Shown piece after piece: positions 53,974-63,344 of a stretch of DNA of 64,000 nt (the first letter of the stretch is position 1; each line of letters starts with the position of its first letter). The stretch is taken from the NCBI RefSeq assembly GCF_041381155.1, contig NC_091134.1:57042467-57106466 (forward strand), written 5' to 3'. The translations under genes were made by a program, and so were the position numbers. This DNA comes from Argopecten irradians (Eukaryota; Mollusca; Bivalvia; Pectinida; Pectinidae). The notes under the pieces were generated by a model. The model did no database searches and was not told where the DNA came from. It saw only the letters and a program-made list of their open reading frames with translations.

Positions 53974-56900
53974 TTTTACAAACATGTAATAAATTTAGAA
54001 AAATAGACAAAAGTGTTGCTTTTATTCTTAAAAATAGGGTTCAGATTAACATAATGATTATACAAAAGTATACATTTGGTTAAGGACATATATGATATTT
54101 GATATTTTAAGCTCACAAATAAAACACAATATATTGTAGTACATATTGCAATACAGCGACTCTATATCGCAATATATCGTGGTACGATCAGCCGTGCCGT
54201 TATAATCTATGTAGGTAGTAATTTATAAAGTGTAGTAAACGTGAAAAGAAACTGAGTAGAAAGAATTCCTTTATACTTGAAGTGAATTCACTATATAATG
54301 TCATATGTTACCAAAAGCTGGAAAGTTGTCAAATGACATGTTTGTAATCTGTAATGTACTTATAGCCAATCAAAAGTCAGTATTTTGTTGTGTGTTGTAC
54401 TGATGAGCTGGTGAGTAAAACTTACCGTAAATTTAATTGCCGTAAATCATCATAATTCACAATTTCTAAAATATCTTCTAATGTATATTGCTCAGCTGTC
54501 ACCTGTAAGTTGAATAAGGAATAATATTTAGACTTTGAATTCAACATTTCTGAACAACTTTCTCTGATTTGTATTTTAGGCCTACAATGTATTGATACCT
54601 GTGTATTTTGGCAGGCTGTGGTACATTTGTGTCTGTCTTCTATAGATAACAAAATAACTATCAACATAATATTGCAATCACACTGAAGTGTAAGACAAAA
54701 AACACCGTTCAGCACCCTTACTTGCAGATTACAGTGCAACCTTATGAATGATCAATATTACAGTGCGATCTTACTGAAGTGTATGACAAAAATCACCGTT
54801 CAGCACCCTTACTAGTCTATACTGACCATGAACGGATTACAGTGCAAACTTATGAATGATCAACATTACAGTGCGATCTTACTGAAGTGTACGACAAAAG
54901 TCACCATTCAGCACCCTTACTAGTCTATAATGACAATGAACTGACCACTGGCCTACCTTATGAATGGATTCCTCATCCATCTTCTGTTCCTTCATCCAGG
55001 CCACGAGGGACTCATCAGGGGGTTCATGGATTTCTGGAACTTCAGACCAAAAGGTCAATTATAATACATAATTTGGTATATTTTTCTTGTATTGGAGTAA
55101 CTTAATTCAATCAACACTCTTGCGAGGCAGAAACCCCAAAACCACCCCAATCTCACTCTTTTATTGTACAAACCATATTAAAATATACTGTCACCCACAA
55201 TGTATGTTATTTGTTTACTGATCATTACTTTGTTACAGGTCTTTATTGAAATATCACACATAACTTCTGTATTGATTGTACCGCTAACCTCATCGCAAAG
55301 GAAAGAAGGAATGTGCATGTTTACTACGACAGATCAATGTGCCAAGAGTACAGAAAGAGAAATACCGATGACTTAAAGAATCTCTTAAGATTTTTTGTTC
55401 CCTAATGTGCCCCGTTGTTATGTGCCCCGTTGTTAACATTTTTTAAATACGCCTAATATGCGCCCTGTTGTTAACATTTTTTAAATAAGCCTAATATGCG
55501 CCCCGTTGTTAACATTTTTTAAATACGCCTAATATGCGCCCCGTTGTTAACATTTTTTAAATACGATGAACACGTATATATGTTTAATAGTTACCTCGTT
55601 TACCCTGAGTAATTGGTACCATGTTGTGTGGATGACTGAGATTGCTAGACACCCTGAAAATAGAACACATATGAACTTAAAAGGCTCAACAGTGCAGACA
55701 CAGGAAAAATCAATACCGTACCCTCAATTTTATGAATTTTTAACTTTTTTCACTGCCTTCATCAACATAAAATTATACCAGCATATTTCATATTACTGAG
55801 TGAAAAGATACTGTTATTTCCACATTTCAATTCAGGTGTAACATCAATCATCTTTAATCAGTCATTAATTATTGTATTCGATTGACATACTGTCAATGCA
55901 CCAAGGCAGTCAAACTATTGCATGCTCCCCTGGCCAGTCAGGAAAGTCAAACTCTCAAACACTCATAGTCAGGAGAGTCAAACTGTCACATGCTCAGTGT
56001 CAGGGGAGTCAAACTGTCACCCACTCTCAGTCAGGGGAGTCAAACTTTCAACCGCTCTCAGTCAGGGGAGTCAAACTTTCAACCGCTCTCAGTCAGGGGA
56101 GTCAAACTGTCACCCGCTCTCAGTCAGGGGAGTACAACTGTCACCTGCACTCAGTCAGGGGAGTCAAACTGTCACCTGCTCTCAGTCAGGGGAGTCAAAC
56201 TGTCACATGCTCATAGTCAGGGGAGTCAAACTGCCACCCGCTCTCAGTCAGGGAAGTAAAACTGTCACATGTTATCAGTCATGGGAGTAAAACTGACACA
56301 TTTGTGCTCAGGGGAGTTGAATCGAGTTATATTACTGTAATGAAATGAGATAAATATTTGAACTTACTTGACATGTTCTATATGGAGTTTCTTTTCCTCT
56401 ATTGACTTTTTGAGTAGGGTACCATAGGAACGGTTGACATCAATTAATTCATGAAGTAATCTGTAATAAAATTAGTATTTATTACATGTAAATTAATGTG
56501 TGAAAAATAATTGTGACATAATACATGATGTTGGATGTTATTGAGAGAGAACTGTTTGACTTTTATATAAAACAAAATAATGTTGCTTTCAAAATATTTC
56601 AAAAATACAAAATATCTGTTAAACAGATTTTACCCTTGCTTTCATTATATGAAGTTCTATAAATAGAAAGTTAACACTGACCTAAGATTGTCTTCTTCAA
56701 TATTGTCAAGTTGTGTACGCAGCTCTGCTGTTTCTGGACTAGGTCTGTATGCTAGGGCGGATTTGTTTGAGTTTGTGGACGGAACACCTGATGTATCAAC
56801 CTCATCCTCTTTACTTCCTACTGAAAGACTGGCCCCTAACTCTGCAATCAGACAACATAAAGGTTCTAATACTGGCCCCTAACTCTGAAATCAGACAACA

Positions 56901-58254
56901 TAAAGGTTCTAATACTGGCCCCTAACTCTGAAATCAGATGACATATAGGTTCTAATACTGGCCCCTAACTCTGAAATCAGACAACATATAGGTTCTAATA
57001 CTGGCCCCTAACTCTGAAATCAGACAACATATAGGTTCTAATACTGGCCCCTAACTCTGAAATCAGACAACATATAGGTTCTAATACTGGCCCCTAACTC
57101 TGAAATCAGACAACATATAGGTTCTAAGACTGGCCCCTAACTCTGAAATCAGATGACATATAGGTTCTAAAACTGGGTCCTAAGTCTGAAATCAGACAAC
57201 ATATATGTTCTAATACTGGCCCCTAACTCTGAAATCAGACAACATATAGGTTTTCTAATACTGGCCCCTAACTCGAAATCAGACAACATATAGGTTCTAA
57301 TACTGGCCCCTAAACTCTGAAATCAGACAACATATAGGTTCTAAGACTGGCCCCTAACTCTGAAATCAGACAACATATAGGTTCTAAGACTGGGTCCTAA
57401 CTCTGAAATCAGACAACATATAGGTTCTAAAACTGGGTCCTAACTCTGAAATCAGACAACATATAGGTTCTAAGACTGGGCCCCTAACTCTGAAATCAGA
57501 CAACATATAGGTTCTAATACTGGCCCTAACTCTGAAATCAGACAACATATAGGTTCTAAAACTGGCCCTAACTCTGAAATCAGACAACATATAGGTTCTA
57601 ATACTGGCCCCTAACTCTGAAATCAGACAACATATAGGTTCTAAACTGGCCCCTAACTCTGAAATCAGACGACATATAGGTTCTAAGACTGGCCCCTAAC
57701 TCTGAAATCAGACAACATATAGGTTCTAAGACTGGCTCCTAACTCTGGAAATCAGACGACATATAGGTTCTAAGACTGGCCCCTGACTCTGAAATCAGAC
57801 AACATATAGGTTCTAAGACTGGCTCCTAACTCTGAAATCAGACAAAACATAGATAACACAGATTCTAAGACTCGCCCCTAACTCTGAAATCAGACAACAC
57901 ACAGGTAACACTGGCTCTAAGACTCACCCCTAACTCTGAAATCAGACAAAGCTCATAATTTTGAAATGCATGACTAATACTTTTCTGAAAAAAGAAATCA
58001 ATAAGGGCATAGACAAGTTGTAGAATTTTTCCAATACTTCAGTAAAAGTGTAAATAATGTAGGTTACAAGTAGTATACACTTTCAACCTATCAAGCCTTT
58101 CGTCATGGATAAACTCAGACAAAGTTTATTGAAGATTGATTGTCTTACCTGGGGATAAAATGGTGATGGCTCGCTGAACAGCACTGCGTAAGAGGTTGTC
58201 GAGTGCAAACATCCAGTGAGGCTGTATATTGTGGCTCTTAAGACATTTACCAAC
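52041..58254 (-). CDS. ASK-type MAP3K, C-terminal part (MAP3K5/6/15 family)
   Basis: Seven exons in gene order: 58149-58254, 56682-56841, 56368-56460, 55604-55653, 54957-55039, 54426-54502, 52041-52107; 636 nt, 211 aa plus TAA, all phases consistent. Visible: [28 protein letters not shown], the conserved segment just after the kinase domain in ASK kinases; a Ser-rich linker; a coiled coil ([20 protein letters not shown] onward); then a SAM-like domain, [41 protein letters not shown] and [11 protein letters not shown], ending KNNSY. ASKs are stress-activated kinases upstream of p38 and JNK; in that family the C-terminal coiled coil and SAM domain serve self-association. The kinase and N-terminal regions must lie right of 64000. 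Human paralogs 5, 6 and 15 are not separated by this evidence; invertebrates often have one gene. Confidence 0.92.
53126..53262. mobile_element. Hairpin MITE
   Basis: GACAGTGCCTAGTGTCACCCC and its inverse form long arms around TCAACGTTAACCTCGGCATC; outer bases CTACCTGCATTAGAG mirror CTCTAATGTAGTAG. It directly abuts the hAT relic, in the last ASK intron. Confidence 0.8.
53262..54205 (+). mobile_element. Non-autonomous hAT element with CGATATATCG ends
   Basis: The left end CCACGATATATCGATATATCG and right end CGCAATATATCGTGGTACGA are inverted-repeat-like and GC-poor. They enclose a BED-finger reading frame and a 26-nt T run at 53941. No clean 8-bp target duplication was found. In the last ASK intron. 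Confidence 0.6.
53473..53812 (+). pseudogene. BED zinc finger of hAT transposase, frameshifted
   Basis: ATG at 53473 gives [20 protein letters not shown], then [26 protein letters not shown] and a stop. Shifting one base at about 53640 gives [14 protein letters not shown] and an open frame to TAA near 53812. Together these hold the C-x2-C and H-x4-H BED pattern of ZBED/hAT proteins. Only the DNA-binding part is present; the catalytic domain is absent. Confidence 0.75.
54426..54502 (-). CDS. ASK exon: SAM domain centre
   Basis: 25 codons, [20 protein letters not shown] and RQLNL, with a split Arg codon CG/G completed by the last exon. YTLxDxLxxVxxDDLxxLxLR matches the ASK C-terminal SAM domain. 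The last exon (52041-52107) is 2.3 kb further, after a hairpin element and a hAT relic. Confidence 0.9.
54640..54945. repeat. ~110-bp direct repeat, 2-3 copies, ASK intron
   Basis: CACCGTTCAGCACCCTTACT and ACTGAAGTGTATGACAAAA recur around 54670, 54790 and 54900, with AATGATCAATATTACAGTGC between. It ends about 12 bp from the exon at 54957. Confidence 0.75.
55395..55565. repeat. 39-bp tandem repeat, ~4.5 copies
   Basis: Unit CGTTGTTAACATTTTTTAAA plus TACGCCTAATATGCGCCC. Almost identical copies. In an ASK intron, 40 bp from the exon at 55604. Confidence 0.85.
55895..56320. repeat. 31-bp minisatellite, ~13 copies
   Basis: Unit GTCAGGGGAGTCAAACTGTC plus ACCCGCTCTCA, with small changes. Because the unit length is not a multiple of three, several frames stay open by chance, giving 89-122 aa ORFs that are not genes. 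In an ASK intron. Confidence 0.88.
56682..56841 (-). CDS. ASK exon: Ser-rich linker and start of coiled coil
   Basis: Begins (G)AG TTA GGG GCC, giving [16 protein letters not shown], and ends [17 protein letters not shown]. The 3' splice site that starts this exon (TCTGATTGCAG/AGTTAGGGGCC on the minus strand) is the seed of the 43-bp tandem array filling the upstream intron. Confidence 0.9.
56842..57960 (-). repeat. 43-bp minisatellite built from an ASK 3' splice site
   Basis: About 26 units. On the minus strand each reads TATGTTGTCTGATTTCAG followed by AGTTAGGGGCCAGT and ATTAGAACC. The first part matches the true splice acceptor of the adjoining exon (TGTCTGATTGCAG at 56842-56855) and the second its first 14 exon bases. 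Several units are 42 bp. Units toward 57900 decay. Confidence 0.93.
58149..58254 (-). CDS. ASK exon: post-kinase conserved segment
   Basis: 35 codons reading [19 protein letters not shown] and then [16 protein letters not shown]. The PHWMFALD block is near-identical to my memory of vertebrate ASK1. The acceptor is AATTGTCAG-like (revcomp at 58255-58256) and the donor GTAAGA. This is the most upstream exon seen; the next stretch to the right is satellite. Confidence 0.92.
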
Positions 58255-58374
58255 CTGACAATGATAATCATCCAAAGTATGAACATAGGAGCAACAGGAG
58301 CAATGGCAATGTATGATTATCCAAAGAGGCCAACAGCCTTAAGCTGAATGATCATCTACTACATCGCAACACAC

Positions 58375-59460
58375 ATGAGGTCATAGTGGACAAGTGGTTG
58401 AGTCCCTACATATTACCACAAGCCCTCCACCTCTGAGCCAAGGTGGGCGAGTGGAAAGTCCCTACATATTACCACAAGCCCTCCACCTCTGAGCCATGGT
58501 GGAGCGAGTGGTATAGTCCCTAAAGTCTCAACTCTGGGCCGGTGGGGCAAGTGGTAACCTACATATTAAACACAAGCCCTCCACCTCTGGGCCGTGGTGG
58601 GCGAGTGGATAGTCCCTACATATTACCACAACCCCTCAACCTTTGGGCCATGGTGGGCAAGAGTGGTAAAGACCCTACATAATTAACACAAGCCCTCAAA
58701 CTCTGGGCCGTTGGTGGGCGAGTGGTTAAGTCCCTACATATTACCACAAGCCCTCCACCTCTGAGCCAAGGTGGGCGAGTGGGATAGTCCCCTACATATT
58801 ACCACAAGCCCTCAAACTCTGGGCCGATGGTGGGCGAGTGGTTAAGTCCCTACATATTCACACCCCACAAGACCCTCCACCTCTGAGCCATGGTGGGCGA
58901 GTGGTATAGTCCCTACATATTACCACAAGCCCTCAAACCTCTGAGCCGTGGTGGGCGAGTGGTAAAGTCCCTACATATTACCACAAGCCCTCCACTTCTG
59001 AGCCATGGTGGGCGAGTGGTATAGTCCCTACATAATTACCACAAGCCCTCAAACTCTGGGCCATGGTGGGCGTGTGGTAAAGTCCCTACATATTACCACA
59101 AGCCCTCCACCTCTGAGCCATGGTGGGCGAGTGGTATATAGTCCCCTACATATTACCACAAGCCCTCAAACTCTGGGCCATGGTGGGCGAGTGTTAAAGT
59201 CCCCTACATATTACCACAAGCCCTCCACCTCTGAGCCATGGTGAAGCGAGTGGTATAGTCCCTACATATTACCACAAGCCCTCCACTCTGAGCCATGGTG
59301 AGCCGAGTGGTTAAGTCCCTACATAATTACCACAAAGCCCTCCACCTCTGAGCCATGGTGGCGAGTGGTAAAGTCCCTACATATTACCACAAGCCCTCCA
59401 CCTCTGAGCCATGGTGGGCGAGTGGTAAAGTCCCTACATATTTAGCCCTCCACCCACGAG
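58375..59460. repeat. 57-bp satellite, block A (variable)
   Basis: About 19 units of CCTACATATTACCACAAGCC plus CTCCACCTCTGAGCCATGG and TGGGCGAGTGGTAAAGTC. Two variants alternate (CTCCACCTCTGAGCC and CTCAAACTCTGGGCC), and many units have single-base indels. Presumably in an ASK intron. Confidence 0.9.
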
Positions 59461-60300: not shown

Positions 60301-61423
60301 CGATTGTTATTTTGTGTAAAGTATTTGTTTAGCTAATCTTTAGTGACATTACCGTTACGGTTTGTAATAACGACAACTGTTAAAGTGAGGTTATTTATGT
60401 TGTAAAAATATCAATCATTACACATATGTTGTTAATAAAGATTAGCATCTATTGTAACCTAGATATCCTAGAAAATTATTATATAAACAAGATGTTTGCT
60501 TCCACGAGTATGACTACTGGGCCTTTCTGGGGGCAGTATTACACTGTGGGCTAGCGATTCCTGGCAGGGGAGGGGAGGGGGGCGTAGACCGCGGGCTGTA
60601 CATGTAAGAAGTGCTGGTGACTTAGTATTATTTAGATATATGGATGTGTATTTCAATGATATTTAGTAAACTTGTCTATGATGTTCGCGGGATGTACGCA
60701 GTGATTAGGTGTGATTCAAGCCCTAATAATCGCTTTTCCCTGATTTGTCTATCTCTTTTTTTCAATAATCCACTTCGCGTCTATTTATCTGTATACAGGT
60801 AAGTTCAAAATATGTTTTTATAATATAAATTCAATCAAATGGATCTAGTGTTGTTTGGTTCCGGAAAATAAAACATTATAGTCTGCGGTGAGTCTATATA
60901 TTAGTAAATGTGTCTAAGACTGGTCAGAGATTCAGGGAGAGTAGATTCAAGGCCTGATAGGAACGGGTGTTTTTGTATTCGTGATAACGCTGGGTTCCAT
61001 CCATGATTGTGACAGCATATTCATCCGTAAATGGGCCCTGAACCCGCCAATGTCGATCTATATAAAACCACTGTCCGATTGTGTTGTGCATTCATGAGCG
61101 TCACTAGCTATTTTAAACTCTGTCATTTTAGTCATTCGGTATTTATGACTTTAAACATTTCTTCTTTTTCAAGCCGCCGAGCCTATGGACCCTTTTGTCC
61201 CTTTTGGGCAACCTATCGACCAGTTTTCTTTAGCTGATTTAGCCTGCACATGAATGACAGAGCAAAAAGGGCAGTGTAACTCATTTCATGAAAATACTAG
61301 ACAGAGAGTTACATTTACATAATTGACCTGAGTATTATCAATTGTTGAGTATAAATATTGTTTGGTTTAGTTTGTGCCTAATACATTTCTACTCTGTTTA
61401 TACTCTTTGGTTCAATTATCACT
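60301..61423. other. Single-copy spacer, probably ASK intron
   Basis: No recognisable exon of the kinase on the minus strand and no clear repeat. The ORF at 61031-61237 has no recognised domain. Confidence 0.4.
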
Positions 61424-63344
61424 GGCCCTAACTCTGAAATCAGATAAAGTCAACAAATATATAAGTTATAATACCTTCTGGCCTGTACAACTCTGAAAAG
61501 CCCTCACCTGAATATAACTGTTTTTTGAGTAGCAGTGAGACTGGCCCTAAATTAGAGCCATGGTGGGCGAGTGGTAATCCCTACTTTCCACTTCCAGATC
61601 TGAGTAATGGTGGGGGCGAGTGGTAAGTCCCTGACTATTACCACATCCTATACACTCTGAAAGGATAAGTCTTAAATTATTTTTACAAACCTCCACCATT
61701 TTGGCCCCTAGTGACTAACTAAGTCCCTACAATTACACATAGTCTTTCTAATTTGGCCCTGGGGTTCTGGTAATTAAGTCCCTGAATATTTACAAGCCCT
61801 TCAAATACTGGCCTATGATAACTCTGGTAAAGTCCCTACATACATATCAAGTAAATCTTCAGAGGTTAAATTCCCCTACATATTACCACAAATCCACTCT
61901 GGTATACAAGTGGTATAGGTTCTAAGAATCCCTAACATGGTTTTGAAATCAGATACAACAATGTGGGTTTGGTTAAATGCCCTGGGTTACCAAGCCCTCC
62001 ACTGAAATCAGACATTAGAAATGCACAAGCCCTCCACATTAGGTCCCTACATATTACCACAAGCCCTCACTCTGAAATCAGACAACATATATTATAAGAC
62101 TGGCCCCTCTGACTCTTAAATCAGACAACATATTAACATTAACATATTCTACATACTATTGGGTCCCTACTAAGTTAAATCAGACAATAGTATAGGTTCT
62201 ACATATGGCCACAAGCCCTAAACTCCATGAAAAATCAGGGTAAATGTTCATTTATATAATCTGGTTCTAACTACTGGTATTTAAAAATTACAAAATCAGG
62301 GGGGGTAAAGAAGTTATCTCCCCTAACTCCTAAATCAGACAATTGGTGAGATTCGATATTTCCCTGTAACTTGCCTCATAACTCTGAAATCAGATAAGTG
62401 GTTCTAAAGTCCCTAAAAAGTGTCTAAACGGTCCTTACAAAAAGGTCCATTGTCATATGTTTTCATTAAATATTTAGGCCTTTTACAGTGAAAAACCTTG
62501 AAATCAGAAGACATATAATATTTTTCTACAGAGTGGGTTTTTTTCTGAAATCGACCCTATACACATTTTCTCAGCTGGTTACCACAAGCCACCTGAAAAT
62601 GAGCAGAGCAAAACGAATAAACTTGGAACAGACCTATACATGAATTTGACATCTAGACCCTAAACCTCTGGTAAATTCAAAAAATGGACAACATTTCTGA
62701 AAATAAAAACTCCAATGCTGCTCATAAGGGCCAGGGCAGAATCAAACCAACAATAGATTGTCAGACAAATCCCCTTATTTTGGGCAAATTTCAAACAAAA
62801 GTAAAATACCTGTATTGACATAGAAGGTGAATGTTTCTGGAGCAAATCCTGCAACCTTGGGAAATATCCAGGGAGCAATGAAAGTTCAACTGTTTAAATG
62901 TGTGCAAACCTGTAAAATAGGGCCAATACATTTACCACTGTAAAATTATATAAAGAAGAAATTTCCTAAAATTCTGTCAAGTGTCGTGTCTGACAGGGGG
63001 AGAGGTAATCAGTATATAGAATTTCATGAATATTTTGGTCAATGTTTTGGTGCGGAATTCAACATAAGATGGCACCCCCACATAAAAAAGTTTAGCAAGA
63101 TGGTAGATCTTTATTTCTTTAATATTCACAGGCAAACATGCTGTATGCGAGATGCCATTCTTCAAAATTAGTGACAGGTGACCAGACTTGAAAACTCCCA
63201 TTTAACCTTGACAGCGGCAAACGTTAAAATATATCGTACATAGCGAAATCATTTGGTTCTGCGGTCTCTAGAAATTGACATTTTTACTATTTAGCAATTA
63301 GCTTGAAATTCAGGGACAGAACCAAAAAAATAGCATAACTAGAA
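61424..63344. repeat. Scrambled second copy of the 57.5-60.3 kb region
   Basis: Fragments of the 43-bp unit (CTAACTCTGAAATCAGA) and of the 57-bp unit (GCCATGGTGGGCGAGTGGTA) are mixed at irregular spacing to about 62600. Then 62640-63300 follows the order of 59640-60200 with frequent indels, at an offset near 3.1 kb. Confidence 0.75.

Follow-up and report, generated by a model that had tools for sequence, protein, structure and literature searches.

A minisatellite of 26 intron/exon border copies in the ASK gene of a scallop, and its likeness to the mirages of amphioxus

Minisatellite-like tandem duplications of an intron/exon boundary are a named kind of sequence, the 'mirage', known from amphioxus. 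Mirages are described for Adh3, for the globin genes BflGb6 and BflGb9, for PGBD5 and for troponin C (PMC3087553, PMC3902484). Data on Adh3 and reverse transcription polymerase chain reaction on the globins suggested that regular splicing proceeds undisturbed (PMC3087553; PMC3902484), and copy number differed between haplotypes (PMC3902484). Within the literature covered, mirages are described in amphioxus only, and a search of titles and abstract openings, with most subscription papers outside its scope, found no report of border arrays in molluscs. Here, we describe such an array in the scallop Argopecten irradians. The DNA analysed, called the window below, is a stretch of 64,000 nucleotides (G000:C1:57,042,467-57,106,466) of an 846-Mb assembly, and its minus strand carries the 3' part of a gene for an ASK-type (MAP3K5-type) MAP3 kinase. 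One intron of this gene ends in tandem copies of its own border with the following exon. We consider it probable that the array is a mirage-type minisatellite, tolerated as a by-product of a minisatellite-rich genome, and that the exon-proximal site is the one used.

Tandem Repeats Finder (TRF) reports two arrays that overlap, one of 24.9 copies of 43 bp at window positions 56,828-57,906 and one of 2.7 copies of 52 bp at 57,811-57,950. A count made at the border gives 26 head-to-tail copies on the minus strand (56,828-57,955), namely 24 decoys with an intact AG, one broken copy and the real acceptor, whose first exon base is 56,841 (Table 1). A preliminary description of this stretch had spoken of about 26 decoys; that figure holds for the border copies, and the decoys proper number 24. 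Its view that the 43-bp units reproduce the intron-exon border with AG and first exon bases was correct: the dinucleotide is kept in 24 of the 25 non-real copies, the first 14 or more exon bases are matched exactly in 12 of the 25, three of which reach 17 bases (57701, 57359, 57142), and with one mismatch allowed 16 of the 25 match at least 16 bases. These matches suggest a founding unit composed of some 26 bases of intron and at most 17 of exon. Border copies are mostly 43 nt apart, some 42 or 44, and the outer two 52. Nearly every copy contains a compact acceptor module made of a T-rich stretch, about 22 AG-free bases and TTTCAG/AG. The edges of the array give a mixed picture as to escape from homogenisation: the two outermost units are diverged and the real border has a private TTGCAG (the TGCAG difference seen earlier), but the unit on the exon side shares the motif CTTTATG with the neighbouring decoy (56884) and with no other copy. 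Given the tandem arrangement, chance is no issue. Searched against the assembly, a 173-base piece taken from the array found matches within the array itself and, about 5 kb off, at window position 62,064, and nowhere else; these counts are lower bounds, since the search skips very common words.

By its anatomy the array belongs to the mirage kind. All 26 units combine an intron end with an exon start, the splice dinucleotide persists in nearly all of them, and the array adjoins what is predicted to be a genuine coding exon border, with a HisK-N-like domain match running up to the junction. Amphioxus mirages are likewise tandem boundary duplications; many of their copies retain the splice dinucleotide, and they occur on either side, 3' or 5', of an exon. 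They differ in size: the scallop array has 26 copies of 43 bp, whereas the two haplotypes of BflGb6 have 6 and 3 units, each of 150-160 bp, and the units of Adh3 measure 10-72 bp. Furthermore, the host is a scallop and not a cephalochordate, sampled borders have been counted in the scallop, and the scallop array is known from sequence alone. Two other systems are close. Internal tandem repeats in human segmental duplications (PMC2812944) are also minisatellites at an exon-intron boundary and can alter splicing; they are linked to new introns, supported by transcripts, in paralogues of recent origin, whereas in the scallop the HisK-N-like exon is single-copy and the array is described from genomic sequence. 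In Rogers-type intron gain (named in PMC3087553 and cited in PMC2812944), a tandem duplication similarly copies a splice signal; in contrast, a new intron is not apparent in ASK and its array lies within an existing one.

The earlier assignment of the adjoining gene to ASK is well founded. Profile searches matched the HisK-N-like domain (PF20302) on the joined ASK peptide with E 6.9e-15 and MAP3K_TRAF_bd on an exon upstream of the window with E 7.1e-24, and the kinase exon, also upstream of the window, has MAP3K5 as its best PDB matches. PF20302 has a single match genome-wide at E up to 1, and the stretch 58,000-58,400, which includes the exon upstream of the array, is matched once in the assembly. 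The exon borders given here were predicted from sequence, profiles and frame. Across the real junction, the G/AG join yields Pro-Glu-Leu, an order that agrees with human ASK1. The split Glu codon supplies the last HisK-N-like profile position, 132 of 132, and the unspliced upstream exon alone reaches position 131. Although it is a matter of one residue, this fit suggests that the exon start is gene rather than repeat sequence. It thereby bears on a reading with the opposite order of events, in which an intron repeat spread over an old border, its own TTCAG became the acceptor and the present exon start is repeat-derived. In favour of that reading, related degenerate copies of the unit do occur elsewhere in the gene, on the far side of the upstream exon and at a distance of about 3.5-5.5 kb. 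However, a second repeat is intermingled with these distant copies, which may have arisen later or through faulty assembly; the mosaic of two repeats at 61,421-62,517 may be true or may reflect a faulty consensus. Together with the fit of the Glu, this makes a repeat-first origin unlikely in our judgement.

Part of what we describe might also be artificial, in that copy number and small length differences could reflect assembly or base calling. There are 11 indel columns among 23 units, several within homopolymers, where they could be residual long-read errors, so the exact unit lengths of 42, 43 or 44 nt are unsafe. The neighbouring region is a mosaic of two repeats with near-duplicate blocks at 92% identity, and some loci recur on small contigs. 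The same 23 units, however, carry 33 substitutions relative to their consensus, which would hardly be expected of an invented array, and border arrays in unrelated places of the genome share its form. We regard an artefact of this kind as very improbable.

The history that we favour would begin with the tandem duplication of a 43-bp stretch straddling the 3' splice site. The duplicated unit would then have been multiplied and homogenised within the intron by slippage or unequal exchange. Since only the exon-proximal copy precedes a complete exon with a downstream donor, the spliceosome would join to that copy by exon definition, and the decoys, in which the exon-like sequence ends after about 14-17 bases, would mostly be ignored.

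We also considered exons of myosin and kinase genes located by profile (82 myosin rows, all kept, and 142 kinase rows, 31 of which were dropped by eye, mainly matches covering most of the kinase domain in a single exon, together with four rows of a locus that recurs on a small contig). From 133 planned regions 33 were obtained, 20 on contigs C1-C3 and 13 on C15, C16 and C20, corresponding to 47 of the 193 kept matches, and 78 of 94 borders passed a hand-set score cut; the sample is thus small and non-random. A uniform blastn test for tandem copies spanning a given point was positive for 7 of 78 exon borders, for 74 of 600 non-exon positions lying at least 150 nt from a matched exon, which may include exons missed by the profiles, and for 1 of 45 exon middles. 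One of the seven positives (L019, G000:C1:42,671,054-42,671,224) is doubtful, so that the count is better given as 6 or 7, and two others (L024 and L025) lie in one gene. For L019 a border copy is the less likely reading; a tandem duplication of 118 nt lying within a myosin exon, with a shift of its frame, fits better. The difference between borders and non-exon positions is not significant (Fisher p 0.46 with 7/78, 0.27 with 6/78), and the rate at which sampled borders sit in arrays is roughly two thirds to three quarters of that for non-exon DNA (7.7-9.0% versus 12.3%); for exon middles versus non-exon positions p is 0.049. Along the gene, tandem copies were found at 2 of the 78 points placed 60 nt into the exon, at 7 borders, and at 8 and 13 points placed 100 and 800 nt into the intron. 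Coverage declines gradually from intron to exon and shows no drop where the splice site lies. In the 200 kb sampled, 12.0% of the sequence consists of tandem repeats with a period of at least 10; for the window the share is 17.0%.

Two of these further cases are arrays of intact donors. In a myosin-head exon, all 12 copies of a 54-bp unit keep the GT, and the array forms one open frame, so that splicing from a donor further along would lengthen the protein by n x 18 residues. In a kinase exon, the GT is intact in all 8 copies of a 55-bp unit. One myosin gene has looser copies at two of its borders, 5 of a donor and 4 of an acceptor, the AG being kept in 3 of the latter, and one more acceptor and one more donor occur in 2 copies each. 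When five ASK borders near the array were put to the same test, the array's own acceptor had copies (25 blastn pieces) and the other four had none. Because border-spanning copies occur at other sampled borders, a role specific to the ASK locus is weakened.

One question for our reading is how the real site would be recognised among its copies. Acceptors were scored with a matrix built from 37 acceptors of the same genome, none from ASK, picked by a hand-made score; the matrix is therefore a coarse one and may include wrong training sites. In leave-one-out scoring the 37 sites have a median of 8.3, and 27% fall below the real ASK acceptor, which scores 6.5. Site strength was rejected as the selector, as 22 of the 24 decoys score at least as high as the real site. 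Two further candidates were set aside: the idea that RNA folding sequesters the decoys was not supported (for 301 nt of array z was -1.0, and 20 of 100 shuffles folded as well), and a recursive splice site with an AG/GT ratchet point is excluded by the decoys themselves, which read CAG/AGT or CAG/ACT in all 24 intact cases and CAG/GT in none. No Rfam family reached its gathering score in window 55,500-58,400.

Under first-AG scanning, in which AGs less than 12-15 nt from the branch point are skipped (PMC1431707), the position of the branch point matters. Only 22 AG-free bases precede the real acceptor, so its branch point must, on that model, lie within about 40 nt and inside the array; from a branch point beyond the array, scanning would arrive at the first array acceptor or at the acceptor-like site at 57,984. 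Under this model, the earlier proposal that the array is neutral if branch points exist only outside it consequently fails for the annotated acceptor. A yUnAy match, TTTAT, is present 16 nt upstream of the real site and of the nearest decoy (56884) and is missing from the other decoys, while a second, CTGAT at 48-50 nt, is common to all copies except the first three. The apparent branch-point difference between the real site and most decoys is a lead only.

Several observations weigh against our reading. As acceptor strength fails to single out the real site, the choice would have to rest on exon definition. First-AG scanning and transcription order alone would favour the upstream copies. The strong acceptor-like site at 57,984, 49 nt before the first array acceptor and followed by an in-frame TAG within four codons (judged by eye), also speaks against it. 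The motif TCTGATTT is invariant in nearly all units, which may be a weak hint of constraint and is explained equally well by recent homogenisation. In the genome sample, given its 78 borders from 33 regions chosen non-randomly, a modest depletion of arrays at borders (9.0% or 7.7% versus 12.3%) is possible. Finally, classical work on duplicated acceptors found that the copy nearer the upstream donor is favoured, all else being equal. According to the same body of work, the choice between duplicated acceptors is determined by exon sequence and by proximity.

The consequences of a slip into the array follow from the reading frame. Continued in the frame of the upstream exon, all 24 intact decoys run into a premature stop, as is required of a poison acceptor; 23 of the stops lie inside the array and one, that of the nearest decoy, inside the true exon. 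The frame shift and early stop foreseen for a decoy one unit upstream are therefore borne out. The rescue imagined for units of 42 nt is not, because nine of the 24 decoys already extend the message by a number of bases divisible by three, and all nine stop within the array. Since later exons follow the decoy stop, mRNA decay would be expected for slipped transcripts, and any protein made from them would be an ASK without its coiled coil and SAM-like end. These stops upstream of later exons, the decoy scores that equal or exceed that of the real site, and the compact AG-free acceptor module kept by most units would also suit a functional array, in which some transcripts splice to decoys and are lost to nonsense-mediated decay, and copy number acts as a length-dependent damper on ASK output. 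On the other side stand the similar border arrays at other sampled borders, which give no sign of an arrangement specific to ASK, and the amphioxus arrays, reported without disturbance of splicing (PMC3087553). On balance such a damper appears rather unlikely, and a role of the array in setting ASK output is possible.

The sampled borders that sit in arrays are the more interesting wider point than the ASK locus alone. We tentatively propose, as a possibility that falls short of an expectation, that working splice-site arrays occupy a sizeable share of scallop borders (6 or 7 of the 78 sampled) and that the spliceosome still picks the exon-proximal copy. If this is true, splice-site choice in the scallop lineage would depend on the exon and its opposite end, with little contribution from the site itself, and at hundreds to thousands of borders the accuracy of splicing would be modified by array length, which changes fast. 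Splice sites repeated 8 to 26 times in an array offer natural experiments on spliceosome choice, and a mollusc in which about 8-9% of sampled borders have such arrays would make the question testable across numerous loci and alleles. Should decoys be used to any extent, variation in array copy number would be an overlooked source of variation in gene output.

Table 1. Features of the ASK array and its surroundings (window positions) and the two largest donor arrays found elsewhere (locus coordinates).
Feature	Position	Strand	Details
Next ASK exon (19 protein letters not shown...)	56368..56460	-	coiled-coil-like by eye; acceptor score 11.7
ASK exon after the array (15 protein letters not shown...DNLR)	56682..56841	-	donor CTTAG/GTCAGT
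Real acceptor, TTTATGTTGTCTGATTGCAG/AG	56841..56861	-	border TTGCAG
Minisatellite, 25 duplicated 3' splice-site borders (24 AG intact, 1 broken)	56842..57955	-	most units 42-44 bp, two outermost 52 bp
Broken copy, TTTCGAG instead of TTTCAGAG, at about 57,274	57260..57300	-	acceptor AG destroyed
Strong acceptor-like site outside the array, TTATTGATTTCTTTTTTCAG/AAAAG (TTTCTTTTTTCAG)	57984..58004	-	score 9.4, second highest of 156 AGs scored
ASK exon, end of HisK-N-like domain	58149..58254	-	donor CCCCAG/GTAAGA; ends in codon phase 1; PF20302 profile positions 97-132 of 132
Degenerate scattered copies of the border unit with pieces of a local 57-bp repeat; status uncertain	61421..62517	-	upstream part of the ASK gene
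Myosin-head exon donor, 12 copies of 54 bp, 12/12 with GT	L039 coordinate 2497 (G000:C16 near 3,233,617)	-	36 exon-like and 18 intron-like bases
Kinase exon donor, 8 copies of 55 bp, 8/8 with GT	L034 coordinate 2665 (G000:C2 near 68,506,520)	+	stop at once past the first donor

A few minor observations complete the picture. The local 57-bp minisatellite occurs in three places within duplicated segments, at window positions 58,386-59,454 and 63,354-64,104 and at 65,143-65,701 in the joined coordinates of locus L009, and the block that follows its second place is repeated about 1.6 kb further on with 92% identity. The peptide of one muscle myosin exon (L053) agrees in 107 of 107 residues with striated-muscle myosin heads in the PDB (1dfk, 1kk7, 1qvi and others), which come from Argopecten irradians, and two more myosin sequences, 2ec6 and 2os8, rank next; the mitochondrial COX1 family gave no match. 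GC content in the sampled regions is 35.6%. At least 150 C1q matches were found in the genome, and matches of a kinase (C255) and of C1q (C455, C1243) repeat scores seen on large contigs, as expected of leftover haplotigs.

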